Source of the DNA: Actinomycetota bacterium
GTDB taxonomy: Bacteria; Actinomycetota; Thermoleophilia; Gaiellales; Gaiellaceae
DNA: 35,135 bases
NCBI GenBank assembly: GCA_900299235.1
Contig: OMIZ01000166.1
Location: 1 to 35,135 of the forward strand
Direction of reading: 5' to 3'
The position numbers and the translations under genes are program-made. Shown piece after piece: positions 15,156-35,135 of this stretch. Position 1 is the stretch's first letter. The number at the start of each line of letters is the position of its first letter. The notes below the pieces were generated by a model. That model searched no databases. It had not been told where the DNA came from and was given only the letters and a program-made list of their open reading frames with translations.

Positions 15156-15351
15156 CAGCCGGGTGGCCTGCGGTGAGCGCGCGGGCCGTTATACAGAGAA
15201 GACAGATCTGGTCTGTCGCTGACAGCCCAAAGAGATGGCTGCGGCCCGCCTGCCTGCCCGGGCCGCGGCCATGCACTTCGCCTTGTGCGTGCTGCTCAGA
15301 TGATGGGGTGTCGTCTGAGCAGCACAGCGCAGGGCGGCGTAGTCTTTGGGT
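15156..15351 (+). ncRNA. Hairpin-dense gap: candidate structured RNA or 5' leader
   Basis: No gene fits this gap, but five successive hairpins can be drawn. They are GGCCTGCG/CGCGGGCC (15165-15187, one G-U pair), GACAGA/TCTGTC (15201-15217), CAGCC/GGCTG (15223-15241), GCGGCCC/GGGCCGC (15241-15266) and GTGCTGCTCAGA/TCTGAGCAGCAC (15289-15325, 12 perfect pairs, 13-nt loop). The third and fourth share one base. The last ends 26 nt before the ATG at 15352, so this could be a leader that controls that gene or a separate small RNA. No known riboswitch, 6S or SRP signature is present. High GC makes chance hairpins likely, but the 12-bp stem is harder to dismiss. Confidence 0.35.
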
Positions 15352-28652: not shown

Positions 28653-28813
28653 GCGCGTCTCCGCGTTGCGCGAGTTGGACGTCACGGCGGCGGTACGCAC
28701 CGCCCGTGAAGGGACGTCCTGTGCCACCGATCGCGAGCTCGTGGATCTGTACTGCAACGTGGGAGTCGCGTCTGCCACGCTGTCTGCCTCGTGGCCGCGT
28801 CAAGCCCAAGTAA
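28649..28813 (+). CDS. Doubtful short reading frame (54 residues) or frame-shifted remnant
   Basis: An ATG at 28649 has an ideal ribosome site (GGAGGAGG, 28637-28644) and runs 54 codons to TAA at 28811-28813. The product is rich in Arg, Pro, Ser, Trp and Cys and its third positions are only moderately G/C, so it does not look like a normal protein. The neighbouring frame, from 28651, reads a more protein-like sequence (ERVSALRELDVTAAVRTARE) but has no ATG or GTG start. Either this is a tiny gene, or one base is missing or extra here. I see no function. Confidence 0.25.
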   Translation: MSASPRCASWTSRRRYAPPVKGRPVPPIASSWICTATWESRLPRCLPRGRVKPK

Positions 28814-29780
28814 CACGTCGGCAACCCACGCAAGCGATGTGCCGGACGTTCTCCGGCCCGGACTCGCGTGCGTCTTCTGCGGGATCAATCCCGGCCGGTT
28901 CTCTGCGGCAGCTGCCGCCCACTTTGCAAATCCACGCAACGACTTCTGGCGGCTGCTTCATGACGGCGGGTTCACGCCTCGCCTCCTCGCGCCCGACGAG
29001 CAGTTCGAGCTGCTCGATCTTGGGTTCGGAATCACGAACGCCGCCTATCGCACAACGCCGGGGTCGAGCGATCTCCGCCGCCGCGACTTCGACCTCGAGC
29101 GACTACGAACAACGGTGCGTACGTTCGAGCCACGCGCGATCGCCTTCGTCGGCAAGGAGGCCTACCGCGGACTCTTCGGTGAGCGGCCCGAGCACGGGCC
29201 GCAGCTGAGGGCGCTGGGTGCCACCGGGCTCTTCGTATTGCCCTCGACCTCGCCCGCTAATGCGGCCGTCCCCTACGCCGAGCGTCTTGCGTGGTTCAGA
29301 CAGCTTCGAGCCTGGATTGAGCCCGAGCCACGCCAAGCCGTTCGCGCTCTCGTCATCGACGCCGACGAACGTGTCCTGCTCTTCCGTTTCGAAGGGGCGA
29401 AAGGCGCGGATATCTGGTGGGCGACGCCCGGTGGGGGCATCGAGGCAGGTGAGGATGAGAACACGGCGCTTCGCCGCGAGCTGGCCGAAGAGGTCGGCCT
29501 CGTCGACTTCGAGCAGGGGCCGTGGGTGTGGGAGCGCGAGCACGTCTTTCCGTGGCTTGGTCGTCTCCTCCGGCAGCGCGAACGCTTCGCCGTCGTTCGC
29601 GTGTCGGATCCGGCGGTGACGCCGGCGATCGACCTCGGGCCTGAGGGGATCCGTGGTTGGCGCTGGTGGACGCTCGCCGAGCTGGCAACGACAACCGAGC
29701 GACTCGGCCCTCCAGCGCTTGCGACGCACGTGGAGGCGCTTCTCCGCGACGGGCCCCCACCTGCACCCATTAGCCTGTAG
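28791..29780 (+). CDS. Mug-type uracil-DNA glycosylase fused to a Nudix hydrolase
   Basis: The 329-residue protein starts at GTG 28791; GTG 28839 is a plausible later start. Residues ~20-175 are a mismatch-specific uracil/thymine DNA glycosylase of the Mug/TDG family. GINPG (31-35) is the catalytic motif with Asn33. NPRNDFWRLL and GFGITN follow, and PSTSPANA (151-158) stands for the second Mug motif that inserts into DNA. Residues ~183-329 are a Nudix domain with the complete box G215-x5-E221-x7-R229-E-L-x-E-E-x-G-L. The pair would remove damaged or deaminated bases from DNA and hydrolyse a nucleotide, perhaps a damaged dNTP. The usual Mug is only ~165 residues, so the fusion is notable. It precedes a four-helix membrane protein gene. 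Confidence 0.88.
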   Translation: MAASSPSNTSATHASDVPDVLRPGLACVFCGINPGRFSAAAAAHFANPRNDFWRLLHDGGFTPRLLAPDEQFELLDLGFGITNAAYRTTPGSSDLRRRDFDLERLRTTVRTFEPRAIAFVGKEAYRGLFGERPEHGPQLRALGATGLFVLPSTSPANAAVPYAERLAWFRQLRAWIEPEPRQAVRALVIDADERVLLFRFEGAKGADIWWATPGGGIEAGEDENTALRRELAEEVGLVDFEQGPWVWEREHVFPWLGRLLRQRERFAVVRVSDPAVTPAIDLGPEGIRGWRWWTLAELATTTERLGPPALATHVEALLRDGPPPAPISL

Positions 29781-33675: not shown

Positions 33676-33809
33676 CGCGACACGCGTCGTCTCGGTGCGG
33701 AGCGCACAGGAGAGCCCCGGCTGCGGCGCCCTGGGCCCTCCGTGCAGTGCTCTCACCAAGAAGGTCCCGCGGCGGGCCTCTGCGGCGAAGTCCCACTCCG
33801 CGGCTTTTC

Positions 33810-33840
33810 CTCCTCGGATCCACGACGGTGCTCCGAGGAG
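33810..33840. terminator. Hairpin after the DHA2 pump gene
   Basis: CTCCTCGGA (33810-33818) pairs exactly with TCCGAGGAG (33832-33840) around a 13-nt loop. It is 134 nt past the pump stop codon and is followed by no long T-run, so termination is possible but not certain. Confidence 0.35.
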
Positions 33841-33894
33841 AACTGTCGTTCGTTTGGCACTGTAGGCCCGGGTTTCCAGCCTGTCAAGTAGCGA

Positions 33895-33924
33895 GTCAAG
33901 TTCACTCATTTGAGGGAACTTGAC
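33895..33924. promoter_or_regulatory. 30-bp near-perfect palindrome, candidate operator
   Basis: GTCAAGTTC (33895-33903) mirrors GAACTTGAC (33916-33924), and the inner CTCA (33905-33908) mirrors TGAG (33911-33914) around TT. Thirteen of fourteen paired positions match; only 33904/33915 differ. Further half-sites are GTCAAGTAG (33883-33891) and its reverse complement CTACTTGAC (33983-33991). It lies 88 bp before the XRE-TPR regulator's start, so binding by that regulator is the simplest hypothesis. Confidence 0.5.
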
Positions 33925-34012
33925 CGGAGATTCCGCTTGAAAAGGTGGGTTTTCGGGGCATGTTCGAAAGAGCGGATTGCATCTACTTGACTTCTTCTGC
34001 ACACTCAGCGGT

Positions 34013-35135
34013 GTGGAAGCAGGGGTAGAACGTCACGGTTCGACAAGCGACGCACCGTCGCGTGCAGGTCAACGCGCTCGTGGTGTCGCCGCCTCACGGG
34101 GGTTGCGGCTCGGGGAACGGGTACGGCAACTGCGGGTGTCGGCTGGCCTCACGCAGTCCGAGCTCGCGGGCGATCGCTTCTCCAAGGAGTACATCTCGCA
34201 GATCGAGCGCGGAAAGACGCGCCCGACACGTGAGACCACCGCGTGGCTCGCCGCTCGCCTCGGTGTCGAAGTCGAATTTCTCCAGAGCGGTGTCTCGAGT
34301 GAGGAGCGAGATCGTGCCGAAGCGGTGATCGCCCGCGGCGAGGCGCATCTCAGCCGTCGCGAGTACGCCGCGGCCGTCATGGCGTTCCAGGAGGCGGCAG
34401 GGGCTGTCGCGGCGGCGAGCGCCACCGACCTTCGCGTGCAGGCTCTCGCGGGCGAGGCATGGGCACATATGCAAAGCGGTGACGTGCGGGAGGCGCTGGC
34501 GCTCCTTGGCGAAGCACGGACGCTTGCAGAGGGCCCCGAGTTTGACGATGTCGATCGCGCCGATGTGTTGTTCAGGCTTGGCGTTGCCCGGTACCTGCTG
34601 TCGAGCATCGCAACCGCGCAGACGCTTCTCGGTGAAGCCCTCACCCTGGCCGAGCGCTCCGAACTCACCTCCGACCTCCTCCGTTCACGCATCCTTCTGT
34701 GGCGCTCGCGCTGCCACCGTCGTCAGCGCGACTTCGAGGGGGCGCGCGAAGACGTCGAGCGTGCGCTGGAGCTCGCCGAGTCGCAGCGCGATCCGCGAGT
34801 CCTCGGCGAGGCCTACTTCCAGGCATCGCTCGTTGCTGAGCGCGACGGCCGCTGGGTGCGGGCACGTTCGTATGCCGAACGTGCGAAGGAGCGGTACGAG
34901 GAACTCGACGATGCTCTGAATGTCGGTCGCCTCCTGAACAACCTCGGCAACCTCGACTTCCTGCTCGGGCACGCTGACACCGCAGTCGAGCGTCTAGGTC
35001 AGGCCCTCGCCGTTGCGACGTCGCTCGGCAGCACCGATGAAGAGGCAATCGCCGTTTCGTCGCTCGCGCAGGTTCATCTCCGCACCGGTGAGATCGACGC
35101 TGCAGAGCAGGAGGCACGGCGTGCGCTCGCCCTCC
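34013..35135 (+). CDS. XRE-family transcription regulator with TPR repeats (partial, runs off window)
   Basis: The frame is open from GTG 34013 to the window edge, giving at least 374 residues. After a ~30-residue lead, residues ~31-95 form an XRE helix-turn-helix: LGERVRQLRVSAGLTQSELA, then FSKEYISQIERGKTRPT. The rest is helical repeats with TPR character, for example AYFQASLVAERDGRWVRARS and GRLLNNLGNLDFLLGHADTA. DNA-binding plus TPR regulators often respond to a peptide or small ligand, as in the RRNPP-like families, though here the C-terminus is missing. No ribosome site is clear, and GTG 34013 is the best start seen. Neighbouring inverted repeats are possible binding sites. Strong frame and repeat pattern support coding. 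Confidence 0.85.
   Translation, partial: MEAGVERHGSTSDAPSRAGQRARGVAASRGLRLGERVRQLRVSAGLTQSELAGDRFSKEYISQIERGKTRPTRETTAWLAARLGVEVEFLQSGVSSEERDRAEAVIARGEAHLSRREYAAAVMAFQEAAGAVAAASATDLRVQALAGEAWAHMQSGDVREALALLGEARTLAEGPEFDDVDRADVLFRLGVARYLLSSIATAQTLLGEALTLAERSELTSDLLRSRILLWRSRCHRRQRDFEGAREDVERALELAESQRDPRVLGEAYFQASLVAERDGRWVRARSYAERAKERYEELDDALNVGRLLNNLGNLDFLLGHADTAVERLGQALAVATSLGSTDEEAIAVSSLAQVHLRTGEIDAAEQEARRALAL

Follow-up and report, generated by a model that had tools for sequence, protein, structure and literature searches.

A control region shared by an HTH-TPR regulator gene and a divergent structured RNA in Gaiellales: a candidate peptide-sensing switch

The DNA analysed here (the window) comprises 35,135 nt of contig OMIZ01000166.1 (assembly GCA_900299235.1), from an Actinomycetota bacterium of the family Gaiellaceae. 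At its right-hand end a regulator gene coding for an XRE-type HTH followed by TPRs, hereafter the receptor gene, is read rightwards until the contig end interrupts it, while an unannotated structured RNA is read leftwards from the opposite side of the same intergenic region. Four copies of a 7-bp half-site, designated A1 to A4, lie between the two transcription units (Table 1).

Table 1. Features of the intergenic region and of the flanking transcription units (window positions)
Feature	Position	Strand	Remark
Structured RNA, ~170 nt, unannotated	33700–33852	-	Start placed 7 nt past the -10, end placed after P3 (both predicted)
Hairpin P3	33709–33741	-	Second GCCGCAG (33721–33727); terminator-like
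Hairpin P2	33766–33804	-	Loop GCCGCAG (33780–33786)
Hairpin P1	33807–33842	-	
RNA promoter TTGACA-17-TACAGT, -10 (TACAGT)	33859–33864	-	
RNA promoter, -35 (TTGACA)	33882–33887	-	Overlapped by A1
Half-site A1, GTCAAGT	33883–33889	+	In 77/77 distinct loci, which were selected by the A1 motif
Half-site A2, GTCAAGT	33895–33901	+	Direct repeat of A1
30-bp palindrome	33895–33924	.	A2 + 16 bp + A3
Half-site A3, ACTTGAC	33918–33924	+	Inverted, ~23 bp beyond A2
Putative regulator promoter TTGCAT-17-CACACT	33977–34005	+	By eye
Half-site A4, ACTTGAC	33985–33991	+	Within the spacer of the putative regulator promoter
Receptor gene, XRE-type HTH + TPR	34013–35135	+	Predicted GTG start at 34013 (leaderless); cut by the contig end

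The half-site array

The preliminary description of this DNA had pointed to a near-perfect 30-bp palindrome flanked by two copies of a 9-mer, and both observations were borne out: the arms of the palindrome (33895–33908 and 33911–33924) pair at 13 of 14 positions around a 2-nt centre, and exact copies of the 9-mer occur at 33883–33891 (GTCAAGTAG) and 33983–33991 (CTACTTGAC). For 35 kb of DNA the quality of the palindrome is unusual, not extreme. Two palindromes with at least 13 of 14 pairs and a centre of 0–8 nt are present in the window. First-order Markov simulation of its full length, run 20 times, gave 0.5 on average (maximum three, in one run); for the local stretch 33676–34012, none that good arose in 2000 simulations. 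The second one (15290–15324) has at least 13 of 14 pairs around a 7-nt centre, and the RNA covariance model described below matches there at chance level (9.2 bits). The clustering of the half-sites is more telling than the quality of the palindrome: GTCAAGT/ACTTGAC is found seven times in the window, where 2.6 copies are expected, and four of the seven fall within 109 bp. In the whole genome of this bacterium the 9-mer occurs six times, two of them at this site, and its reversed control 24 times.

Conservation was assessed on 106 operator loci (30 + 76), reduced to 77 distinct ones by removal of 29 duplicates. Among these loci, all chosen for A1, a half-site matching A2 in at least six of seven positions was found at +13 in 71, and one matching A3 equally well at +35 to +37 in 35, many of the others having looser TTCAC/TTGAC forms of A3 by eye. 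The step from A1 to A2 is 12 bp in the window and in the relatives L008 and L142, and 13 bp in most relatives; L008 and L142 also have ACTTGA(C/T) at the position of A4. It had been proposed that the palindrome should recur upstream of orthologues, and this held for the half-site array, not for the exact 30-bp form, whose inner arms were not kept in the orthologues read, including the closest ones, L008 and G007 (= L142). Judged from these orthologues, the 30-bp palindrome appears peculiar to this genome, the outer 7-bp half-sites being the conserved part. Conservation of A1 alone could perhaps be plain conservation of a -35 box.

The tandem operator with 0–1 mismatch was found exclusively at this locus in five of eight genomes, the other three being genomes of the window's genus that the pattern did not match (12-bp step). 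Further targets of the operator are possible, since 14 weaker tandem matches (one with two and thirteen with three mismatches) were retrieved, against six for the reversed control. The inverted pair GTCAAGT-N16-ACTTGAC with up to two mismatches showed no excess in the eight genomes (23 vs 35 in the control); with 0–1 mismatch it was found only at this locus, in the window's genome (G000), G007 and G010.

The preliminary description had also considered control of the preceding drug pump gene, for which no support was found: the pump gene has its nearest upstream half-site at a distance of over 11 kb, and its reading direction points to the RNA gene. What diverges from the receptor gene is the RNA itself. 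Elsewhere in the window, the ORF at 28791–29780 appears by eye to join a uracil-DNA-glycosylase-like N-terminus to a Nudix-like C-terminus.

The divergent structured RNA

The RNA promoter was the sole promoter-like site reported between 33600 and 34200 (mean of 0.0 in shuffled sequences). A -10 of the type TA(T/C/G)(A/G)GT, 16–18 bp from GTCAA, was present in 30/30 loci of the first set, window included, and in 76 of 80 loci of a named-genome scan, that is, the best 80 of 97 relatives, mostly labelled Actinobacteria/Actinomycetota, Thermoleophilia or Gaiellaceae/Gaiella. The four of these best 80 missing the RNA promoter (L085, L092, L103 and L104) would seem to be RNA-less paralogues; a peptide ORF (see below) is present in three, and L103 runs off its contig. 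The same locus as in the Gaiellales records is also present in a record labelled Acidobacteriota (L089), probably a mislabelled bin.

The stretch 33690–33852 folds with a z-score of -4.21. Of 77 distinct RNAs, 74 have the GCCGCAG loop, which is missing from two truncated contigs and from L112; a second GCCGCAG occurs in 65/73 and a T-rich tail after the last hairpin in 49/73. The P3 hairpin of the window is followed by a poor T-run, and terminator prediction reported no terminator there. An alignment by MAFFT, made first, yielded only five pairs with RNAalifold, probably because the stems were out of register, and a loop-anchored alignment gave a clear pairing signal. In apical P2 (74 sequences, 60 distinct) changes on both sides were observed in 7/7 pairs (mean of 5.2 in shuffles), with 76 both-side cells against 26.5 and a covariation score of 0.534, compared with 0.202 after shuffling and at most 0.144 with the partner slid. 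For P1 and P2 together, whose structure came from the very alignment on which it was tested, both-side changes affected 23 of 34 pairs (shuffled mean 17.9) and 111 cells (48.8 shuffled). A covariance model (R1) built without the window sequence matched positions 33748–33862 with 28.4 bits (E 5e-5), the next best match in the window scoring 11.1 bits. Since L007 and L008 were not included in alignment A4 (34 of the 74 RNAs with full P2 loop; unrelated to the half-site of that name), the window copy tests this model independently.

Comparison of the window stretch and of 13 loci with Rfam 15 gave nothing that reached gathering score, and neither tRNA nor tmRNA was found in eight loci. Two sub-threshold matches, lincRNA-p21_2 on the opposite strand (19.6 of 70 bits) and BTH_s19 in L036, outside the RNA (23.6 of 153 bits), look like chance. 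A coding role of the RNA is unlikely, because a Shine-Dalgarno sequence with an ORF of at least 15 aa was detected in only 13 of 74 RNAs. Pairing of the RNA with its own mRNAs was likewise rejected, native and swapped pairs scoring 21.5 vs 21.3 and 24.0 vs 23.7 (peptide and receptor mRNAs, 70 loci); with RNAduplex the means of native and swapped pairs did not differ either, and this result was set aside, the two example structures being long, nearly global pairings. The repetition of the GCCGCAG loop suggests seed pairing or binding of a protein.

In a survey of 129 genomes of the order, the RNA was found in 83, all of family f1, at 85 places. It lies divergently adjacent to the receptor gene at 82 of them, with a gap of 111–305 bp; two of the remaining places are at contig ends (G124:C72 and G014:C80) and the third, in G097, is without receptor. 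A receptor match at E <= 1e-40 was present in 97/129 genomes (92 of f1 and five of family f2), starting in G001 only after the HTH, and 82 genomes have both. Ten f1 genomes showed a receptor match and no RNA match in the survey, four of which (the window's genome, G007, G010 and G036) do have the RNA, as seen by other means; the multi-genome searches used stricter filters, under which the weak copy of the window was not reported. At a looser threshold (E <= 0.001) 45 of 61 related genomes had regulator homologues, some of them weak. In G097 (L190, contig C5), where no receptor was found, the RNA is kept, another gene follows it and the two direct half-sites have one and two changed bases; judging from its sequence, this genome can be regarded as one natural experiment on half-sites without receptor.

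A class sample of 250 genomes (completeness >= 80%) placed the RNA only within f1 (56 genomes), and the receptor extended to three genomes of family f7 (L196–L198). Upstream of the f7 receptor genes, two have GTCAAG repeats with a 14-bp step and the third a GTGAAG/GTCAAG pair 12 bp apart. Downstream, two are without a small ORF with ribosome-binding site, and the third has a 92-aa ORF, charged and not signal-peptide-like. The half-site motif thus tracks the receptor and not the RNA, since f7 has the receptor and GTCAAG repeats while the RNA stays in f1.

The receptor and the small ORF downstream

Hexamers resembling those of the putative regulator promoter were seen by eye in several relatives; promoter prediction did not report this site. 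The receptor shows the Pfam domains HTH_31, HTH_3, TPR_2 and TPR_12, with the TPRs C-terminal to the HTH, and no RRNPP family was found by Pfam and NCBIfam scans, which returned only HTH, TPR or families under their cut-offs. The window copy covers 374 aa until the contig end. Its missing C-terminus is not elsewhere in the genome assembly, and for this reason the window's own peptide gene is not seen. At complete loci the receptor measures 421–469 aa from the start of the match.

The closest relative, L008 (apparently the same record as L037), is 85–86% identical to the receptor part in the window. An AF2 model of the L037 receptor (pLDDT 91.4) comprises an HTH and a TPR superhelix. With VIA-align, NprR was the top match (Z 30.2, 353 residues) and Rap scored 29.6, tied with eukaryotic TPR proteins, LGN and APC/C chains being about as high; in the Foldseek ranking by E-value the top places go to eukaryotic LGN and to designed TPR proteins, with Rap first appearing at rank 31 and NprR at rank 41. 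The modelled fold is compatible with an RRNPP receptor and is no proof of one; the TPR superhelix is a common fold.

In relatives, a separate ribosome-binding site and an ORF of 28–68 aa come directly after the receptor stop; the N-terminus of this ORF resembles a signal peptide, and its C-terminus is conserved, often as xDG. By fixed filters (24–75 aa, start within 115 nt past the receptor stop, a basic residue and a hydrophobic stretch required, secretion judged by hydropathy only) such an ORF was recovered in 73 of 76 distinct loci, counted as distinct receptors with at least 150 nt downstream, compared with 0.18% of 2280 shuffles in 2-base blocks and none of 790 windows further downstream. 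For the three loci missed by the filters, inspection by eye revealed an xDG ORF in L027 and in L081 but none in L112. [DE]G falls within the last 14 residues in 64/76 loci, and differences between sequences concentrate on the third codon position (79/52/146 for positions one to three, over 12 pairs that are not independent). Some precursors contain internal repeats, such as MFDGG/AFDGG or three copies of GMHDGHG plus GMQDGHG, and the predicted C-terminal peptide of the nearest relatives is of the type GFWDGPG. As far as the available part of the RRNPP_detector paper goes (PMC10075063), several of the features by which RRNPP systems are recognised are found here in the relatives: propeptide size (10–100 aa), receptor length (250–500 aa), TPRs C-terminal to the HTH and direct receptor-propeptide neighbourhood. 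For export of the propeptide by the SEC pathway, another such feature, the basic residue and hydrophobic stretch make these ORFs candidates.

Variant loci were also observed. In the five f2 loci (L137–L141, L152–L156), GTCAAG half-sites accompany the receptor in 5/5 and the downstream ORF, 40 and 32 nt from the receptor stop in the two read, is of another peptide type in 5/5, ...HHxGRGFHEW and similar (GFHEW/GFHQW); the receptor-peptide layout is the same, and the divergent structured RNA there is a different one, a hairpin with a conserved GACYGGAGCCCC. Rap-like TPR paralogues without HTH, as judged by the start of the profile match and the open frame and not by a domain search, occur in two genera (L191–L195, from G003, G113, G126, G002 and G009), and in 4/5 they are followed by a small hydrophobic ORF ending in GFSSGG, GFSTGN or GFSSGN; the contig of the fifth does not extend past the stop. 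Finally, in G007 (L142/L151, G007:C1:298000-301000), which belongs to the window's genus, the receptor has an internal deletion (about query residues 136–275); the RNA and peptide genes look intact, the peptide being ...KPYGFWDGPG, with the same tail as in L008.

A putative switch, its alternatives and known systems

With a probability of roughly 0.7, we consider the site to be the common control region of a chromosomal peptide-sensing switch, in which a receptor dimer would act through the half-sites on its own operon and on the RNA, in response to a peptide. The half-sites, the RNA structure, the divergent linkage and the adjacent small ORF can be read directly from the sequences; binding, export or secretion, peptide sensing and the direction of regulation are steps that we infer from them. 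The HTH-TPR receptor dimer would bridge A2 and A3 as a 30-bp inverted pair, much as AimR does with its 31-bp palindrome (PMC6536502), and would also make contact with both promoters, through A1 at the -35 box for the RNA and through A4 within the one for the receptor gene. In this way it would control both the rightward operon, made of the receptor and then the pheromone precursor, and the leftward ~170-nt structured RNA. With its hydrophobic N-terminus directing export, the precursor may be processed to a short peptide from its C-terminal end, which, once taken up, would alter the grip of the receptor on DNA, as in RRNPP systems. Given a near-consensus RNA promoter whose -35 is covered by A1, it is slightly more likely that one receptor state represses the RNA and the peptide lifts this repression than that the receptor activates the RNA. 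The RNA would be the obvious, perhaps not the only, output, because the tandem operator with 0–1 mismatch is confined to this locus (5/8 genomes).

The suggestion that the region is an autoregulated operator thus remains the best reading, with binding predicted from sequence, since the half-sites accompany the regulator in f1, f2 and f7 and since in some relatives they flank, by eye, promoter-like sequence before the regulator gene. Autorepression is suggested by loci of a compact type (L025, L029 and the like), where by eye A2 and A3 flank such a sequence immediately before the receptor start.

The most serious competitor to the peptide-sensing switch is a plain autoregulated XRE-TPR repressor that happens to neighbour a constitutive RNA, the small ORF being an unrelated membrane protein and no signalling taking place. 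XRE-TPR regulators are common in Actinomycetota, and the RNA promoter is near consensus; this explanation is nevertheless unlikely, given the linkage of RNA and receptor at 82/85 places, the conserved C-terminal motif that is repeated within precursors, and the HTH-less TPR paralogues having a C-terminal motif of their own in 4/5 loci. Improbable, too, is that the half-sites are mere promoter elements (-35 boxes, TTGAC) and that the regulator binds elsewhere. Although TTGAC is present in all four sites and A1 coincides with a -35 box, A2 and A3 lie off the -35 positions of scored promoters, the spacing of A2 is fixed in 71/77 loci and that of A3 kept within three positions in 35/77, the f7 receptor homologues have GTCAAG repeats upstream as well, and in one case (G097) the sites are changed where the receptor is missing. 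A type I toxin-antitoxin pair, with the hydrophobic peptide as membrane toxin and the RNA as antidote, would account for a short hydrophobic ORF and an RNA at one locus, but is very improbable: the RNA is divergent and not antisense to the ORF, no excess complementarity was found, and conservation resides in the C-terminal tail, of which some precursors contain several copies. That the RNA is the 6S RNA of the lineage or another known housekeeping RNA placed here by chance is hardly credible, in spite of its strong promoter, ~170 nt length and mostly single copy, as Rfam, RF00013 included, gave no match reaching gathering score for the window stretch and 13 loci, as eight loci showed no tRNA/tmRNA, and as RF00013 matches at E <= 0.001 lie on other contigs in 23 of 41 genomes (four over the cut-off), among them G000:C51:485-643 in the window's genome (38.5 bits, gathering score 46.4).

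Returning to the peptide-sensing switch, it is somewhat more likely than not that Gaiellales communicate through an RRNPP-type system present across the order, with a dedicated structured RNA as its output and with receptor, pheromone and divergent RNA arranged round one operator. As far as the sequences indicate, it would work like an RRNPP system and be a putative member of that group. RRNPP signalling is regarded as a feature of Bacillota (Firmicutes). If the proposal is true, peptide-receptor quorum sensing, here with an RNA effector, would extend beyond Bacillota and its mobile elements and would include Rap-like HTH-less branches with their own peptide code; with such a counterpart spread across an order of Actinomycetota, peptide quorum sensing would have a wider range. 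Gaiellales are soil Actinomycetota, known here mostly from metagenome bins, and the readable peptide codes (xDG, GFHxW and GFSSGG) together with an unnamed conserved RNA would offer a testable handle on soil bacteria. Neither an RRNPP system in Actinomycetota nor an RNA of Gaiellales was among the matches listed in a search of open-access titles and abstract starts. The available part of the RRNPP_detector paper describes Actinomycetota signals as typically small molecules, its survey data deriving from Firmicutes and viral genomes (PMC10075063).

Among known systems, 6S RNA is comparable to the divergent RNA in length, strength of promoter and number of copies, about one per genome. The shape of 6S RNA is one long bulged hairpin, whereas three hairpins with GCCGCAG loops are found here, and separate 6S candidates lie on other contigs. 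The RRNPP systems (Rap-Phr, NprR-NprX, PlcR-PapR, Rgg-SHP and PrgX) share with this locus an HTH-TPR receptor (421–469 aa here), an adjacent small precursor with a basic-hydrophobic N-terminus and a short conserved C-terminus, repeated cores in some precursors and HTH-less, Rap-like TPR paralogues with their own peptide genes; they differ in that the host is here an Actinomycetota (Gaiellales) and a dedicated structured RNA lies in the common operator. Arbitrium (AimR-AimP-AimX) of the SPbeta phages likewise combines an HTH-TPR receptor, a peptide gene directly downstream and a third component. According to the portion of PMC6536502 at hand, AimR uses a 31-bp palindrome, ACT...AGT; GTCAAGT-N16-ACTTGAC spans 30 bp here, a similar geometry at which binding would be expected. 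The third component of phage phi3T, AimX, is reported as a peptide and not an RNA in the accessible text of PMC10769878. Unlike Arbitrium, the locus described here is order-wide, and its third component is divergent, structured and upstream of the receptor, not on the same strand downstream of the peptide gene.
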